64,000 nt of DNA from Shewanella waksmanii ATCC BAA-643. GTDB lineage: Bacteria; Pseudomonadota; Gammaproteobacteria; Enterobacterales; Shewanellaceae. Location: contig NZ_JAEH01000001.1 of NCBI RefSeq assembly GCF_000518805.1, forward strand, positions 124,001 through 188,000, given 5' to 3'. Of the stretch, positions 20,047 to 36,908 are shown piece after piece (the stretch's first letter is position 1; each line of letters begins with the position of its first letter). Position numbers and translations under genes: made by a program. The notes beneath the pieces are model-generated. The model was given only the letters and a program-made list of their open reading frames with translations, was not told the DNA's origin and made no database searches.

Positions 20047-20580
20047 CATTGCGTCGCTGGCGATGCTAAGACAATGAAGTTTGGTGTTTTGCCGCCAAGT
20101 TGACTCCTTGCGATCAATAATAGCGTTACTGCCGAAAGTAAGACAAAAAAGCCGCTGTTTTTCAACACGGAGTTGACTGTTGTCAAACTCCCTATTTCGA
20201 GAAGTGAAAAACTGCAGCTGACGCAGTATTACTGAGGCTAAGTAGCTCCTTAAAATCATTGCGTCGCTGGCGATGCTAAGACAATGAAGTTTGGTGTTTT
20301 CGCCGCGGAGTTAGCACCTATATGCTTAAAAATAGCGTTACTGCCGAAAGTAAGACAAAAAAGCCGCTGTTTTTCGACACGGAGTTGACTGTTGTCAATG
20401 AGTATCGAAAAACTGCGGCTGATGCAGTATTACTGAGGCTAAGTAGCTACTTAAAATCATTGCGTCGCTGGCGATGCTAAGACAATGAAGTTTGGTGTTT
20501 TCGCCGCGGAGTTGACTAGTGTCAATGAGCAGCGAAAACAGCAAACTGAGGCAGTATTAGCAAGCCTAAGCAGCTATTAA
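20047..20580 (+). repeat. Three tandem copies of a structured approximately 200-bp repeat
   Basis: Units start at 20047, 20257 and 20458 with ATTGCGTCGCTGGCGATGC; spacing is 210 and 201 bp, and the third unit is shortened. Each full unit contains nested inverted repeats: CATTG...CAATG at the head, then AGCCGCTGTTTTTC...GAAAAACTGCGGCT around an inner GTTGAC-TGTT-GTCAA. In copy two the outer arms match at 15 of 16 positions. Related copies lie at 33388 and 33690. The array ends just after the stop of the TonB receptor gene on the other strand. Short reading frames within it are by-products of the repeat. It is probably a MITE-like or REP-like element. Confidence 0.85.
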
Positions 20581-20588
20581 CCTAAAAG

Positions 20589-22700
20589 TTAGAATTGATA
20601 CTTAACACTGGCCGTAAAATTCAAAGGCTCACCCGGCATAGTCCAGAGCTTATGGTAGGAGCTTTCAAAGTACTTCTCATTAAACAGGTTATTTACGTCC
20701 AGCATCACGCTAAATCTACTGGTTAAATCCATTGTCGCTGACAAGTTGACTAAGGTATAAGCGGGCAGGATATAGTCAGGATCGGTTGTTTCACCTAGAC
20801 GATCACCAACATAGTTCACTGTGGCGCCAAAGTAGGTTTCTTTGCCCATAATGTCAGTGAAATGCCTCAGTGAAACATGACCTGCATGCTTGGCTACGTT
20901 GATAAGACGTGAGCCTTTGGGGATAGGCACGCCCCAGTCATTATCAATAAGATCTTTGGCTGTTCTTGCATCTGTATAAGCATAAGCCACATCAATACTG
21001 GTATCAGATGTCAGATAGGTGGTCATTTGAAACTCAACCCCCTGACTCTCTACTTCACCTAAGGTCGCTGACAGGCCAGTATCTGGCTCTGCGGTCAACA
21101 TGTTAGTCTTGCTGGCATCATACAGCGCTAGACTACCCGAGAAGCGGTTGGCTACATTTTGCCATTTAAGGCCGATTTCAAACGATTTAGTTTGCTCTGG
21201 CTCAAACGGATTTCTGTCGGAATCTAGTCCTGGGTTGGGTCTAAAGCCTTCTGCATAACTGGTGTATGCATTGATGCTGTCAGTCAGTTCATAGACAAAA
21301 CCGAAGCGCGACGAAACCTCTGTTTGGTCTTGCTCTTGAAACTCATCATCTAATTTGTTGAGAATTTCTTGGTTGAACTTATCGACCCTAAAACCGAGCA
21401 ATAACTTGGCCTTGTCGGTCAGTTCAATCAGATCTTGAGCGTAAAAGCCTACGCCATTTTGCTCTTCCTCTGTCAAAGTTGTCGGTGTGGTTTCAGGTCG
21501 ATCCATCGTGTAGTCTGGGCTATTGGGATCGATTGAGTAAGTCGGATCGCCAGAGCCCCAAGCGGTGCGCCACACTCGATAATCAGTATCTAATTGGAAG
21601 TTATAATAATCTAAACCAATCAATAGGTTATTTGTAAACCCAGCGAGTTCAACATCACCACTAACTTCAAAACGCGCCGAGAAATCTTGCGCTTGATAGT
21701 CACGCTCACGTCTTTGTCTTGAAAGCGTATTCGGGTCTTCGTACACCAGTTGTCGACCATCGGAGAGCTCTGTATCTGACGATTGACCTTTAAAAGATGA
21801 ATCACGGTACGCTAAACCAGTAAGGATATGCCAACTATTGCTAAGTTGATGATTTAACACTAACTGATGACCTAAAGCCTTTACAGTATGATCACCATCG
21901 CGAGTATCACCATAGAAAGCAGATGTATCAACAGAGTCGAAATCATTATCAAGCACATAGACACCACGCTCTAATGGTTTGCGCTGATCAAGAATCTCCA
22001 TTTCATAGCTAATACTGGTGGCATCTGAGATATTCCAAAGCAATGATGGGCTCAAGTTAAAGCTTTGAACATCAACATGATCACGGTGTGTCTCTGAATC
22101 CTCATAAAAGCCATTGATGCGGTAGGCCACATCATCTGTCAAACCTTTAGTATGATCAAATTCGACCTGCTTTTGATTAAAGTTACCTAACGTTCCCTTG
22201 ATGTAACCTTGCTCGTAAAATTGTGGTTTTTTGGTGATGATATTAACGGTGCCACCGGGTTCACCTTGACCGTACAGCGATGAACCAGGCCCTTTCATCA
22301 CCTCAATAGTTTCAATGTTGGCGGTATTTCGGTTGCCGTTATAACCGCGAGAGTTAAAGCCGTTAACTAAGTAGCCCGTTGGATTATTCTCGTCCCCTGA
22401 AAATCCACGAATTGCAAAGCTGTCAAACATACCGCCAGAGTTATTTTGTCTTACCACGCTTGGAGAAAAGTCCAAGGCATCCATGAAGCGGGTTATCCCC
22501 TCTTTGTCCAACGTGTCGCCGGTAATTCTGTCTACTGCTTGCGGTGTTTGTATCAGCGGGACATTACCTCGATAAGGCTGCCATAAGCGCTTCACCTCAA
22601 TACGTTCTATATCATCTGAAGTTTCTATGGTTTGGTTACTATCTTGGGCTAACGCTCCATTGGATACGATAATGGCTGAATATAGAAAATACTTGTTCAC
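20589..22700 (-). CDS. TonB-dependent receptor, siderophore-receptor type, with Zur-box promoter
   Basis: 703 residues from GTG 22700, which gives a signal peptide cleaved near NGALA-Q. Plug domain: residues about 35-170, with the PQAVDRITGDTL, DSFAIRGFSGD and EVMKGPGSSLYGQGEPGG segments; barrel to the C-terminus, ending in Phe (ASVKYQF). In sequence it resembles ferric-siderophore receptors of the FpvA/FhuE kind. However, a 17/18 Zur-box match at 22737-22755 lies 37 bp before the start, so it is more likely derepressed by zinc limitation. An in-frame ATG at 22766 is rejected because the operator would fall inside the gene and the signal peptide would be displaced. It needs energy from TonB-ExbBD, not encoded here. 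Confidence 0.9.
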   Translation of the reverse strand: MNKYFLYSAIIVSNGALAQDSNQTIETSDDIERIEVKRLWQPYRGNVPLIQTPQAVDRITGDTLDKEGITRFMDALDFSPSVVRQNNSGGMFDSFAIRGFSGDENNPTGYLVNGFNSRGYNGNRNTANIETIEVMKGPGSSLYGQGEPGGTVNIITKKPQFYEQGYIKGTLGNFNQKQVEFDHTKGLTDDVAYRINGFYEDSETHRDHVDVQSFNLSPSLLWNISDATSISYEMEILDQRKPLERGVYVLDNDFDSVDTSAFYGDTRDGDHTVKALGHQLVLNHQLSNSWHILTGLAYRDSSFKGQSSDTELSDGRQLVYEDPNTLSRQRRERDYQAQDFSARFEVSGDVELAGFTNNLLIGLDYYNFQLDTDYRVWRTAWGSGDPTYSIDPNSPDYTMDRPETTPTTLTEEEQNGVGFYAQDLIELTDKAKLLLGFRVDKFNQEILNKLDDEFQEQDQTEVSSRFGFVYELTDSINAYTSYAEGFRPNPGLDSDRNPFEPEQTKSFEIGLKWQNVANRFSGSLALYDASKTNMLTAEPDTGLSATLGEVESQGVEFQMTTYLTSDTSIDVAYAYTDARTAKDLIDNDWGVPIPKGSRLINVAKHAGHVSLRHFTDIMGKETYFGATVNYVGDRLGETTDPDYILPAYTLVNLSATMDLTSRFSVMLDVNNLFNEKYFESSYHKLWTMPGEPLNFTASVKYQF

Positions 22701-22736
22701 GTGCTCTGCTCTAAATGGACGACAAAATAAAAGCGC

Positions 22737-22755
22737 AATGTTATAACATAACATT
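22737..22755. promoter_or_regulatory. Zur box upstream of the TonB-dependent receptor
   Basis: AATGTTATAACATAACATT matches the gammaproteobacterial Zur consensus AATGTTATANTATAACATT at 17 of 18 defined positions and is a near-perfect palindrome. It is 37 bp upstream of the GTG start of the minus-strand receptor gene, in promoter position. Confidence 0.75.
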
Positions 22756-23027
22756 TTAACCGTCAAAGACAGATATGTGACAAATTATCAAAGTCGCTGC
22801 TACGCCTTGCTAGTACATCAAGTCAGTTAACACATATCCAAGCTGGCTTTTAATCATCCAGTGTTGAATGTTCAATAGACAAAAGCCATTCCCTATTAAT
22901 CCCTATATGGCTAAGTCGCTGACACCTTTAATTAAACGTAAGCCCTATTGCCTACGCTACGGCACCATGCTTTCCTGTGACGAGTAAACGCAGCAAAAGA
23001 CAACTGAACACATCAATTACAAGTGAT

Positions 23028-26302: not shown

Positions 26303-27229
26303 ATGTCTGCGACTTTTTTACGTTCTCCCTTGCAAGAACACAAAGAACAAAGCCTCAAAATACGCCTAAAAAACCAATTGAATGTAGCTAATATATTCAA
26401 AGCCCTAGATTCAGACCCAAAAACAACAGGTGCTGGTGTCGTTTTCATCGACCATGAATTCACGGTAGTAACATTAAGACCATTCGTCCCAATTTGCCGC
26501 AAAGATCCAATACGGCTGATTTTAAGGGAGCCTCCAAAACAAATATCAGCATCAAACTACGCAAACGAACTAAAAACATCTCGCCGTGAAAGCAAGCTAA
26601 CAGGCGAGCTATTGAATACAGGGTTAAGTTGCAGTGCAGCAGTTCTTAGTTGGATTGTCATTTATGGTAGTGCAGTTGCAATCCCGCTGACAGGCGGCGC
26701 GAGCACTGTTGTTACCTATCTAGGCGGCGCCGCTGCAGTAGCTTCGCTTGGACAGTGCTTTAATGGCATAGCCCGCTCATTTACGGAGGCAAATAGCCCC
26801 GAAACACTAGATAAAATTGACGAAAAGGAATGGTATCAAGCTGCTGTCAAAGCTTTAGATGTGATCTCATTAGGCGGCGCAGCCGCAGCGGGAGCCACAA
26901 CAATTAAAATGATTAAGACAATTAACCTCACGACATCAAAGTCTATCCTACAAGTGCTTAAAGGATTGAGCCGGCCCGAAAGAAAACGTCTAACAATGGA
27001 AATACAAAGATTAAATAGCCCTGGAATAAGCGCGCAAACCATGAAGGCACTAACAAACTCAGGAAAGCTCACTGGGCGTTACAGTAGCCAAGCATTAGTC
27101 AATGCTATTTCACTAAACTTGAAAAATGCTATTAGCGCGAGCCTGAGCGTCACAGGTAGTTCATTTGATGGTAGTTTGAAAAATATTGCAGTGGGTATTT
27201 ATGAGGAAATCTCTTCTTATGAAAGATAG
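26303..27229 (+). CDS. Hypothetical protein, candidate membrane-acting effector
   Basis: 308 residues, no signal peptide. Residues 1-85 form a soluble N-terminal part. Two Gly/Ala-rich hydrophobic stretches follow, about 102-150 (SWIVIYGSAVAIPLTGG, YLGGAAAVASLGQCF) and 188-202 (ISLGGAAAAGATTIK). The C-terminal 100 residues are basic, with LKGLSRPERKRL and LNSPGISAQ segments. The layout recalls membrane-disrupting type VI effectors such as the Tme family, and the next gene, overlapping by 11 bases, encodes a multi-helix membrane protein as an immunity partner would be. No PAAR, VgrG or MIX marker is present. The effector reading is inference; an orphan island protein is the alternative. Confidence 0.55.
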   Translation: MSATFLRSPLQEHKEQSLKIRLKNQLNVANIFKALDSDPKTTGAGVVFIDHEFTVVTLRPFVPICRKDPIRLILREPPKQISASNYANELKTSRRESKLTGELLNTGLSCSAAVLSWIVIYGSAVAIPLTGGASTVVTYLGGAAAVASLGQCFNGIARSFTEANSPETLDKIDEKEWYQAAVKALDVISLGGAAAAGATTIKMIKTINLTTSKSILQVLKGLSRPERKRLTMEIQRLNSPGISAQTMKALTNSGKLTGRYSSQALVNAISLNLKNAISASLSVTGSSFDGSLKNIAVGIYEEISSYER

Positions 27230-32849: not shown

Positions 32850-33022
32850 ACGAGAATTATAACCTACTAAGGATCAAATACTATTTTCAATGCCCCTATA
32901 AAGCGAGGCTTAGCTTGACCATACTGGGTAAGCGAGAAAATGCTAATGACAGCTCATTGGTAAGCCCCTAGATCAGTAGACACTTCATAGAATTATAATG
33001 AACCAAAAATATGAAGTGTTAC

Positions 33023-33139
33023 ATGCGCGAAAAACATTATCCCGACGAGTTCAAAATTGAAGCTGTCAAACAAGTCACTGAACGTGGTAATAAAATCGCT
33101 GATGTTGCAGAAAGATTAGTACCTATATACATAATATGA
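33023..33139 (+). pseudogene. Truncated IS3-family transposase OrfA fragment
   Basis: The frame reads MREKHYPDEFKIEAVKQV and continues ERGNKIADVAERL, the start of the helix-turn-helix of IS3/IS911-type OrfA. Similarity ends at about codon 32 and a stop follows at 33137-33139. The rest of OrfA, all of OrfB and a recognisable right end are absent, so this is a dead insertion-sequence remnant at the right side of the island. A 34-codon frame (33136-33237) overlaps its end and is not supported as a gene. Confidence 0.75.
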
Positions 33140-33387: not shown

Positions 33388-33627
33388 CATTGTGTCGCTG
33401 GCGATGCTAATGCTAGGCGAACCGATGGCTCTAGCCCTGCTTTGGCTGGTAGCAATGAACACTCAAACAATGCTAGCCCCCCCAATCAACACCAATAGCG
33501 TTACTGCCGATAGTAAGACAAAAAAGCCGCTGCTTTTTGCCACGGAGTTGACTATTATCAAACTCTTAACTTCGAGCCATGCAAAAAGTTGCAACTGATA
33601 CAGTATTACTGAGGTTAAATAGCCAAC
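33388..33627 (+). repeat. Dispersed structured repeat, copy 4
   Basis: Begins CATTGTGTCGCTGGCGATGC and shares with the 20047-20580 array the blocks AATAGCGTTACTGCCGA, AGTAAGACAAAAAAGCCGC, CACGGAGTTGACT and CAGTATTACTGAGG. The segment after the head (TAATGCTAGGCGAACCGATG) differs from copies 1-3 and is shared with copy 5, defining a subfamily. Reading frames inside it are not genes. Confidence 0.8.
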
Positions 33628-33655
33628 AAAAAAGCGACTCTAAGGTCGCTTTTTT
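33628..33655 (-). terminator. Intrinsic terminator about 155 bp downstream of gcvP
   Basis: AAAAAAGCGAC-TCTAA-GGTCGCTTTTTT, symmetric and usable from both directions. It lies between repeat copies 4 and 5, downstream of the minus-strand gcvP stop. Confidence 0.65.
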
Positions 33656-33689: not shown

Positions 33690-33805
33690 CATTGCGTCGC
33701 TGGCGACGCTAATGCTAGGCGAACCGAAGGCTCTAGCCCGGAGTTGACTGTTGTCAATGAGGACTGGAGCCGAGGTTCAACACCGCAGTAGCGAGCCTAA
33801 GCAGC
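33690..33805 (+). repeat. Dispersed structured repeat, copy 5 (shortened)
   Basis: Starts CATTGCGTCGCTGGCGACGC, continues with the copy-4-specific TAATGCTAGGCGAACCGA, then jumps to GGAGTTGACTGTTGTCAATG and ends AGCGAGCCTAAGCAGC, like the short copy 3. It abuts the gcvP stop codon, as copy 3 abuts the TonB receptor stop. Confidence 0.8.
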
Positions 33806-33810
33806 AAAGA

Positions 33811-36696
33811 TTACTCGTAGTCGCTCATTGGCACACAGGCGCAAAAGAGGTTTCTATCCCCATACACATCATCAATACGATTAACCGCTGGCCAGAACTT
33901 GTTGCTCTTAACCGCTTCGGTTGGGAACACGGCTTCTTCACGCGTATAAGGGCGTGAATCGAACGCTGGGTCCATGATGTCGGCCATGGTGTGTGGTGCG
34001 TTATGTAGCGGGTTGTTGTCCGCTGGCCACTCACCTGCTTCAACGCGGGCAATCTCACCACGGATGGCAATCATTGCGTCAACAAAACGGTCTAGCTCAA
34101 CTTTCGACTCAGACTCAGTTGGCTCAATCATTAGCGTACCTGCAACAGGGAAGCTCATGGTTGGCGCGTGGAAGCCATAGTCGTTAAGACGCTTAGCAAT
34201 ATCCATTTCGGTTACACCAGAGGCTTCTTTAAGCGGGCGTAGGTCGATAATACACTCGTGAGCGATACGTCCGTTACGGCCGGTATAAAGTACTGGGTAA
34301 TGCTCGCTTAGGCGCTTAGTCATGTAGTTGGCATTTAATAGTGCCATCTGCGTTGACTGTTTAAGGCCTTGCTTGCCTAACAGCTTTATATACATCCAAG
34401 TGATAGGTAGAATACCTGCACTGCCATATGGCGCTGCTGATACCGCACCATTGTTGTCAGAATCACGACCGTGCTTGACGACTGCGTGGCCAGCAACAAA
34501 TGGTGCTAGGTGCGATTTAACACCAATTGGGCCCATACCTGGTCCACCGCCACCGTGTGGGATAGCAAAGGTTTTATGCAGGTTAAGGTGTGATACGTCG
34601 GCGCCGATAAAGCCAGGTGATGTTAGACCTACCTGAGCGTTCATGTTGGCACCATCAAGGTAAACTTGACCGCCATGACTGTGGATCACTTCGCAAATCT
34701 CACGCACAGTTTCTTCATATACACCGTGAGTTGATGGGTAAGTGATCATGATGCAAGACAAGTTCTCAGCCACTTCAGCCGCTTTAGCTTTCAAGTCTTC
34801 CATGTCGACGTTACCGTCTTTATCACACGCAGTCACTACCACTTTCATACCCGCAAGCTGAGCTGATGCTGGGTTAGTACCGTGGGCAGACTGCGGGATC
34901 AAGCAGATGTTACGGTGGGCATCACCACGAGACTCGTGATATTTTTGAATAGCGAGTAGACCTGCGTACTCACCTTGTGCACCTGAGTTAGGTTGCATAC
35001 ATACGGCATCGTAACCGGTGATATCCACTAACCAATCAGATAGCTCTTGAACTAGCTGCGCATAACCTTCGGTTTGATCTAGCGGTGCAAACGGGTGCAT
35101 GTTGGCAAATTCAGGCCAGCTCACCGGTAGCATTTCAGTGGCCGCATTTAGCTTCATGGTGCACGAGCCAAGTGAGATCATTGAGTGGTTAAGGGCTAAA
35201 TCTTTGTTCTCTAGACGCTTGATGTAACGCATCATCTCAGTTTCACTGTGATAACGGTTAAAGGTTGGATGCGTCAAGATAGCATCGTCACGTACCAGCG
35301 CCGCTGGGACTGATGCGCTATTCGCCATTACCTCTGCATCTAGTGCATCAACATCTAGGCCATGACCTACACCTAAAATCACATCGAACAACTCAGCAAT
35401 ATCGCTGCGCAGTGTGGTTTCGGCGAGGCTGACGCCAACAATGCCGTCGGCATCGATACGTAGGTTAACACCAGCAGCTTCAGCGCGTTGCTTAACGGCT
35501 GCAACCTCTAGGCCGCTAAACGATACGGTATCAAACCAAGTATCGTTAACTAGCTGCACGCCTTTTTGGCTTAGGCCAGTGGCTAGAATGTCAGTTAGGC
35601 GGTGGATACGCTCGGCAATGGTTTTCAGGCCTTGTGGACCATGGAAAACCGCATAGAACGACGCCATGTTGGCAAGTAGTACCTGTGCGGTACAGATGTT
35701 TGAGTTCGCTTTTTCGCGGCGGATATGTTGCTCACGGGTTTGCATTGCCATACGCAGTGCACGATTACCACGGGTATCTTGTGATACACCGATAATACGG
35801 CCAGGCAGTGAACGCTTGTGGGCATCACGCGAGACGAAGAACGCGGCGTGTGGACCACCAAAGCCCATTGGCACACCAAAGCGTTGCGCGCTACCAAAGA
35901 CTACGTCAGCGCCCATAGAACCCGGTGATTTCAACATCACTAGCGACATGATGTCAGCAGCTACTGTTACGACGGCTTTTTTCGCTTTTAGCTCGGCGAA
36001 TAGCTCAGTGAAATCGGTGATTTGACCGTGCTTGTTGGTGTACTGGAATAACGCACCAAATAGCTCGTAGTTAACCGCTTCGCTTGCTGGGCCAACCACG
36101 ACTTCAAAACCAAAGCATTCTGCGCGGGTTTGAATAACATCAAGGGTTTGTGGGAACACATCGTCTGCCACAAAGAAGATATTGGCTTTTTTGGCTTTTG
36201 ATACACGCTTAGCTAAGGCCATGGCTTCGGCAGCAGCGGTGGCTTCATCAAGCAGTGAAGCTGATGCTAGGTCTAGGCCGGTTAGGTCCATAGACAGTTG
36301 CTGGAAGTTCAAAATAGCTTCAAGACGGCCTTGGGCAATCTCTGGCTGGTATGGCGTGTAAGCCGTGTACCAACCTGGGTTTTCAAATACGTTACGTAGG
36401 ATAACCGATGGCACTTCAGTACCATAATAGCCCATACCAATATAGCTTTTGTTGACCTTGTTCTTATCGGCAACGGTGCGCAGATAAGCTAAGCCTTCAG
36501 CTTCGCCAACGCTATCACCAACCAAAAGGTCACGGTTTAAGCGGATCGCTTCTGGGACGATCTGAGCGGTTAAATCTTCTAAAGATTCAGCACCAACAAA
36601 GTTCAACATCTCTTGTTGTTGCTCGCTATCTGGGCCAATGTGACGACCGATAAAGCGATCATGCTGCTCTAACTGAGTGAGTGTTTCTTTGGTCAT
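33811..36696 (-). CDS. gcvP: Glycine dehydrogenase (decarboxylating), P protein of glycine cleavage
   Basis: 961 residues from ATG 36696 ([13 protein letters not shown]), matching the one-chain P protein length (about 957 in E. coli). It decarboxylates glycine and passes the aminomethyl group to the lipoyl arm of GcvH. The PLP-binding Lys is in [17 protein letters not shown] near residue 707. The N-terminal half ([35 protein letters not shown]) and the C-terminal half, with the [11 protein letters not shown] entry, are both intact. An in-frame ATG at 36795 would add 33 unlikely residues. Last gene of gcvT-gcvH-gcvP; a terminator-like hairpin lies 210 bp upstream, after gcvH. Confidence 0.96.
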
Positions 36697-36908
36697 GATT
36701 AACCTAGTTCCATATTTGCCAGTATCTTGCCTGTAGGGTGCAGAGTTACCGGTCTCGTTGTTAAGTCGCGTTTGCTTGGTATAAACCAAATACAAACCCT
36801 TGTACGCAATAGCTAAATAACTTCAGCAAGCCCATTTTGCTTGGGCCTTAATTAACCTTGCCGTGATAAAGTCACTTAGCTATAGGATTAAAAGCGAGTA
36901 TAACGAAC

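Follow-up and report, generated by a model that had tools for sequence, protein, structure and literature searches.

ERIC repeats are widely used in strain typing, and in 2005 De Gregorio reportedly described an orientation preference of the Yersinia ERIC copies that adjoin stop codons. In a 2007 review, ERIC is an extragenic unit of about 127 bp with 7-bp ends, TA termini and a target duplication, the Yersinia copies are linked to mRNA stability, and movement of the element was not known experimentally at that date (PMC2229807). In a 2024 review the hosts of ERIC are Enterobacteriaceae and Vibrionaceae, and the 3' inverted end is described as containing an RNase E site (PMC10969869). REP sequences are palindromes of 20-40 bp with a tag (PMC3733652). 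In E. coli we counted ERIC in 5376 of 5426 genomes, at a median of 11 places; it carries TATACTC..GAGTATA ends, CTGCGTT and TCACTTACTTATGTAAGCTCC. Here we describe a repeat of Shewanella waksmanii that is, in our judgement, quite probably a non-autonomous, ERIC-like (MITE-type) element situated at stop codons.

The window, the whole 64,000-nucleotide stretch of S. waksmanii DNA that was analysed, contains five copies of the repeat, just as the preliminary description had reported: three in tandem, with start-to-start distances of 210 and 201, and two at 33388 and 33690. One orientation is common to all five, and each has the inner hairpin GTTGAC-TGTT-GTCAA. The same description took the unit to be about 200 bp long, with copies 1, 2 and 4 full and copies 3 and 5 shortened, and here the alignment led to a different division. 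The head of the long copies is homologous to their middle, so that the true unit is about 124 nt. A search of the window with the unit profile (nhmmer) recovered eight pieces, of which five were complete units and three were broken halves, and all five complete units matched the genus model R1 (124 model positions; full-length matches mostly 118-137 nt) from end to end. Copies 3 and 5 are thus complete units, and copies 1, 2 and 4 each combine a broken half with a complete unit. The features are as follows.

20048-20106, minus strand: broken half unit preceding copy 1 (nhmmer positions 2-61)
20119-20253, minus strand: complete unit within copy 1, with an insertion beside the loop (R1 126.7 bits, full length)
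20258-20312, minus strand: broken half unit preceding copy 2 (nhmmer positions 2-56)
20331-20454, minus strand: complete unit within copy 2 (R1 142.9 bits, full length)
20458-20581, minus strand: complete unit, copy 3 (R1 133.4 bits, full length)
20589-22766, minus strand: TonB-dependent receptor, host of copy 3 (Pfam PF00593, PF07715)
33389-33468, minus strand: broken half unit preceding copy 4 (nhmmer positions 2-81)
33494-33630, minus strand: complete unit, copy 4, with an insertion of about 13 nt beside the loop (R1 108.6 bits, full length)
33628-33655, no strand assigned: terminator-like hairpin in the interval between copies 4 and 5 (0.6 expected by chance per region; the scan lists it only on the plus strand, and the stem is symmetric)
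33690-33812, minus strand: complete unit, copy 5 (R1 97.1 bits, full length; R2 94.4 bits)
33811-36795, minus strand: gcvP (glycine dehydrogenase), host of copy 5 (Pfam PF02347, PF21478)

Copies 3 and 5 had been said to abut stop codons. The overlap between copy 5 and the stop codon of gcvP (TTA, 33811-33813) amounts to 2 nt, and the end of copy 3 is 7 nt from the stop codon of the TonB receptor (20589-20591). The two head subfamilies proposed for the window became three stem types when units across the genus were compared by eye. The core motif occurred 66 times in 1.93 Mb of Shewanella DNA, a set of loci mostly picked around gcvP, and not once in 19.3 Mb of Markov sequence. The variable stretch separating the two repeat sites includes a gene at 26303-27229 (plus strand) that matches NCBIfam NF053808, an Ssp4 family T6SS effector, followed by small proteins with no Pfam match. 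By eye, positions 33013-33120 (plus strand) resemble the broken start of an IS3-type transposase gene, and positions 1-720 hold a 105-base tandem repeat (five overlapping copies of 300 nt), perhaps of a repetitive protein.

The preliminary description considered the family active and regarded the absence of copies elsewhere in the genome as a sign of local duplication only. Our genome-wide count lends no support to activity in S. waksmanii: neither the 534-base query, nor the core pattern, nor the covariance model R2 found a further copy outside the window, in an 82-contig draft where copies may have been collapsed. R2 was built from 23 sequences (18 from the genus g7, two from families f6 and f15, and three window units). 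The exact core pattern had five matches in the genome, all inside the window, and with two mismatches allowed it gave 15 matches versus 12 for a reversed control pattern. The five complete units are confined to a single 13.7-kb stretch, unlike the many dispersed copies by which ERIC/IRU are recognised. Seven weak R2 matches elsewhere in the genome (E 0.003-0.21) were discarded, most of them being inside a different dispersed repeat. This separate repeat consists of hairpins of about 100 nt at L221 and L223-L227 (contigs C40, C8, C1, C7, C10 and C27); in L223 and L226 two hairpins face each other around GCCAGAATGGCG, and its CTGCGTTGAATAA..TTCGCCTTGAATTAG boxes resemble boxes of the ERIC-like family. 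With no copies beyond the window, the extra copies within it may be local duplications, and tandem duplication probably made some of them. Local tandem duplication might also be the entire explanation, an old palindrome of the gcvP 3' UTR having been spread nearby by recombination with no transposition. The window array, which repeats a composite of about 200 nt, fits that reading, as does the position of copies in other Shewanella genomes, where among the matches listed all those sharing a contig with gcvP, except one in G067, were within about 35 kb of the gene.

We surveyed 129 Shewanella genomes, that of S. waksmanii included, and found the unit in 67 by BLAST and in 90 by the covariance model R1. 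When the lists were compared by eye, 81 of the 90 unit-bearing genomes had a match no more than 15 nt from the gcvP coding end, eight had none within that distance (G007, G019, G034, G059, G075, G080, G091 and G121), and G055 had a degraded gcvP end beside its units. In a collection of 101 stretches (100 plus the window, the first 20 chosen because they carry the unit), 94 loci had a gcvP end, and in 72 of these a unit was located within -10 to +60 nt of it. At least 8 of the 22 unit-less gcvP ends kept the first 10 nt or so, or more, of the unit (by eye). Other hosts in Shewanella are the TonB receptor and a protein of about 143 aa with no Pfam family; reading of the sequences added a multihaem-cytochrome-like protein and a cysH-like gene (G119, G121).

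We also observed Tn7-like genes 3' of gcvP in L114 (G002), L066 (G059) and L098 (G011), and further ones in L052 (G034, on a contig that lacks gcvP). L114 encodes a TnsA-like protein (PF08722), AAA/TniB, TniQ and TnsD (PF15978), and L066 a TnsA-like protein and a weakly matching TniQ; the genes of L098 and L052 were assigned through cluster membership. Two or three direct repeats of about 20 bp, similar to transposon ends, directly follow the gcvP stop codon in L065, L079, L092, L098, L114 and L133. The 3' end of gcvP resembles an attachment site of the TnsD type; 'gcv' is absent from the main text of the published Tn7 surveys that we examined.

We compared the first units behind gcvP with the genes themselves, keeping only units of at least 110 nt for which at least 1300 nt of gcvP were present (68 of 72). 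In 20 of the 25 locus pairs with gcvP more than 93% identical, the first units were less than 80% identical. Vertical descent of the gcvP unit was rejected, since unit identity tracked gcvP identity only weakly (Spearman 0.13, although none of 200 label permutations reached this value). Some pairs of loci from closely related Shewanella differed by a whole unit; for these, the second unit of one locus was compared with the first unit of the other. In the alignment of L063 with L103, an entire extra unit lies between the gcvP stop codon and a shared older unit (95% identical). L093 and L096 compared with L134 have an extra unit in the same arrangement, the shared unit being 93% identical in L093 and 82% identical, with an insertion, in L096. 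L057 and L056 are similar by identity only (89%), with a spacer of about 60 nt. The type of the first unit differs between L131 and L135 and between L054 and L102, and in L131 a remnant of the other type's end persists behind the first unit. The TA repeat at the far junction is imperfect, reading TG in L063 (TA/TG) and being absent from L093 and L096. The extra units could be either gains or precise losses.

Beyond Shewanella, R1 was run over 394 genomes of the order and matched 36, of which 18 were Shewanella, 16 belonged to genus g7 and two were others. R2 gave 12-46 dispersed matches per genome in all 20 g7 genomes (567 in total) and one to seven matches in 8 of the 13 genomes of genus g22, which may be Vibrio. 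Over the order R2 matched at least 109 of 394 genomes and at least 35 of 114 genera, lower bounds because eight candidates per genome were scored. The exact core pattern was present in at least 120 stretches of named genomes, and the 80 loci listed came mostly from Pseudomonas, and also from Halomonas and its relatives, Salinicola, Colwellia, Vibrio, Photobacterium, Shewanella and a few others. R2 matched all 80 (86 matches, E up to 0.01; seven at the core only), which is expected as the core pattern is part of R2. Among the matches listed from open-licence literature, with subscription papers mostly outside the search, we found no publication on ERIC-like elements in Shewanella, Pseudomonas or Halomonas.

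A copy was scored as anchored when the stop codon of an ORF of at least 80 aa fell within -20 to +25 nt of it on the sense strand. By this measure 90 of 135 Shewanella copies were anchored in sense and 3 in antisense, compared to 24 of 675 random positions; the anchored copies belong mostly to one gene, gcvP. In g7, where 52 copies, mostly the best-scoring, were positioned, 45 were anchored in sense and 3 in antisense (random 9/260). The copies thus start at stop codons, mostly in one orientation. We recovered 32 distinct 12-residue C-termini at the anchored g7 copies; orthologues were tallied apart, so the host genes are fewer than 32. Sequence reading indicated a dozen or more different g7 hosts, including fumarase, an AhpC-type peroxiredoxin, FtsK, LysS, PrfB, PurL, EF-P, topoisomerase I and citrate synthase. 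For anchoring and end counts beyond Shewanella, matches below 95 nt, duplicates and loci L221-L227 were left out; one comparison used 76 of the 86 named-genome matches, omitting ten short or cut ones. The named-genome set yielded 40 of 74 copies in sense and 9 in antisense (random 27/370), and 17 copies from other genera of the order yielded 8 and 6 (random 8/85), so that the bias is weak there. A MITE-type element placed at the 3' ends of genes, as first suggested, is thus backed by the relatives, through stop anchoring and whole-unit presence or absence, and not by the S. waksmanii genome. The unit's dispersal behind many unrelated genes in g7 and its presence in other genera argue against local duplication as the sole process, which we consider quite improbable; in Shewanella, one copy far from gcvP exists in G067.

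At the two ends of many Shewanella units stand sequence pairs such as TAATTGC..GCAATTA, TAATGGC..GCCATTA, TAAATGAC..GTCATTT or similar pairs. TA-bounded 7-bp inverted ends pairing at six or more of seven positions were present in 58 of 135 Shewanella copies (controls 11/405), 20 of 52 in g7 (5/156) and 21 of 74 in the named-genome set (2/222), and were at background in the other genera of the order (2/17 versus 4/51). In 27 of the 56 stop-anchored Shewanella copies with TA ends, the left TA is that of the stop codon itself. Clean TA ends are missing from 77 of 135 Shewanella copies, and the window gcvP copy (copy 5) has degenerate ends. The preliminary description had suggested a REP-type family with a TnpA-REP partner, that is, a REP/REPIN element moved by a TnpA-REP (RAYT) protein. 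REP/REPIN elements and the unit are both extragenic palindromes, and RAYT-like genes do occur in the region (cluster C3, 30 members in 21 loci, named by sequence reading), one of which coincides with a PF01797 match in G082. We searched 12 congeners, S. waksmanii included, for the Y1 gene and found it in four of nine with hairpins and one of three without. PF01797 (Y1) had no match in the S. waksmanii genome, nor in the hairpin-bearing G034, G042, G055 and G019, and 29 of the 30 C3 genes lie at least 596 nt from the nearest unit. The unit, at about 124 nt, also exceeds the REP length cited above, and no GTAG/CGTC tag was seen by eye at its ends. The TnpA-REP reading is refuted for S. waksmanii, barring a Y1 gene that the 82-contig assembly fails to include, and overall we give it hardly any credence. 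Separately, the unit at 6208-6328 of L046 (G003) has at its foot an inserted gene that reads as RAYT-like and whose ends carry GGGGTCAGAGTAAACTT-type repeats.

The fold of the unit is conserved, with strong covariation. RNAalifold of 36 units gave 26 pairs, 15 with compensatory change. In an alignment of 88 units that had been fitted to the covariance model, 91.2% of cells pair, versus 77.5% in shuffles, and the covariation score was 0.427, versus 0.191 when shuffled and at most 0.097 for slid structures. Such covariation might reflect an RNA structure in the 3' UTRs of gcvP and further genes, its fold under selection, that for example stabilises mRNA or gives rise to small RNA; units located by eye between the stop codon and a terminator-like hairpin at several loci, and long persistence behind gcvP (72 of 94 ends), agree with this. 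The wobble pairs speak against it. Sense G-U versus sense A-C cells numbered 130:157 in Shewanella, 34:50 in g7 and 44:65 in the named-genome set (the latter two after leaving out units outside 105-132 nt and three named Shewanella loci), or 208:272 pooled, with a binomial p of 0.004 that wrongly takes cells as independent. A control of 12 tRNAs gave 21 G-U and no A-C, a result partly true by construction as bracket notation may omit A-C pairs. With no G-U enrichment on the mRNA strand, selection acting solely on the mRNA fold is disfavoured; DNA folding, or correction of an arm against its partner during replication, would also yield the wobble pattern. Moreover, in 88 of 127 Shewanella units it is the antisense strand that folds more stably, different unit sequences replace each other at the same site, and no Rfam family matched the unit at gathering score in the window search, with only weak sub-cut-off matches elsewhere. 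We therefore regard a selected 3'-UTR RNA as an unlikely explanation.

The lean of the wobble counts to the template strand would also suit an attC-like recombination site of an integron-like cassette system building arrays behind gcvP. Integron attC sites vary in sequence and keep their structure, and, as with the unit, the folded site comes straight after a stop codon; here a folded hairpin closes each of several genes in arrays of the form gcvP-unit-genes-unit. However, in g7 the units are scattered behind single housekeeping genes, the attC core boxes were not matched by eye, and there was no recombinase among the 15 cluster sequences inspected. We judge this reading very improbable.

The ERIC-like reading was compared with ERIC itself. 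Both units measure about 124-127 nt and have 7-bp TA-bounded inverted ends and a long imperfect hairpin, and they share the core TCA-YTTAC..GTAAR-CTCC, the box CTGCGTT and the box order. In E. coli, ERIC starts within 10 nt of the stop codon in the same orientation at cusC and ybhI, but not at psuT (about 55 nt). A single orientation by stop codons, reportedly preferred by ERIC in Yersinia, is likewise seen in the present family, the sense and antisense counts given above being 90/3 in Shewanella, 45/3 in g7 and 40/9 in named genomes, with 8/6 in other genera. The stem arms and most positions are unalike; the unit described here is found in Shewanella, g7, Pseudomonas, Halomonas and Colwellia, and the Shewanella copies are few and mostly gcvP-bound. 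R2, which contains no E. coli sequence, was searched against 125 kb of E. coli DNA drawn from the surroundings of ERIC copies, and its five best matches were ERIC copies (E 0.011-0.26), in five of six ERIC-bearing loci and at three distinct sites. The search covered seven of nine loci, L249 and L250 being the same site as L248. R2 matched the ERIC copy of the psuT-yeiL interval at 19 bits, and it overlapped the L376 copy, whose core is altered, with no match at the core. R1 had no match to E. coli ERIC, and neither did a sequence-only HMM of 144 family members, whereas 61 of 2000 ERIC shuffles did match it (up to 7.1 bits). Homology to ERIC is likely; the unit works like ERIC and probably descends with it. 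We classed the unit as ERIC-like and not as ERIC proper, since the sequence relation scores weakly and multi-copy dispersal is absent in S. waksmanii.

In gene sense, the anatomy of the ERIC-like element runs TA, a 5-bp inverted end, a box close to CTGCGTT, a long stem arm, the core TCAyTkAC..GTmArCTCC, the complementary stem arm, a box close to GCCTTG, the inverted end and TA. The element may insert at TA, and insertion into the TA of TAA or TAG would do no harm, since the element's own TA is usually followed by A, so that a stop codon would be rebuilt. Later copies would land ahead of the resident copy, or the resident copy would be exchanged, producing the tandem arrays and the turnover at gcvP, and the RNA of the element would join the 3' UTR. 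A wider proposal, which we advance as speculation and consider rather unlikely, is that of a gammaproteobacteria-wide superfamily with ERIC as one branch, targeting the stop-codon TA in one orientation and folding as template-strand DNA. The Shewanella gcvP would then be a renewable landing pad, with the newest unit by the stop codon and older ones pushed outward, giving a polarised array with no adjoining integrase. A broad sister family of ERIC anchored at stop codons, sites that are filled or empty behind one fixed gene (gcvP) and a genus in which copies number in the tens would together offer a route to the mobilising enzyme, and the same materials a way to test why a single orientation is kept.
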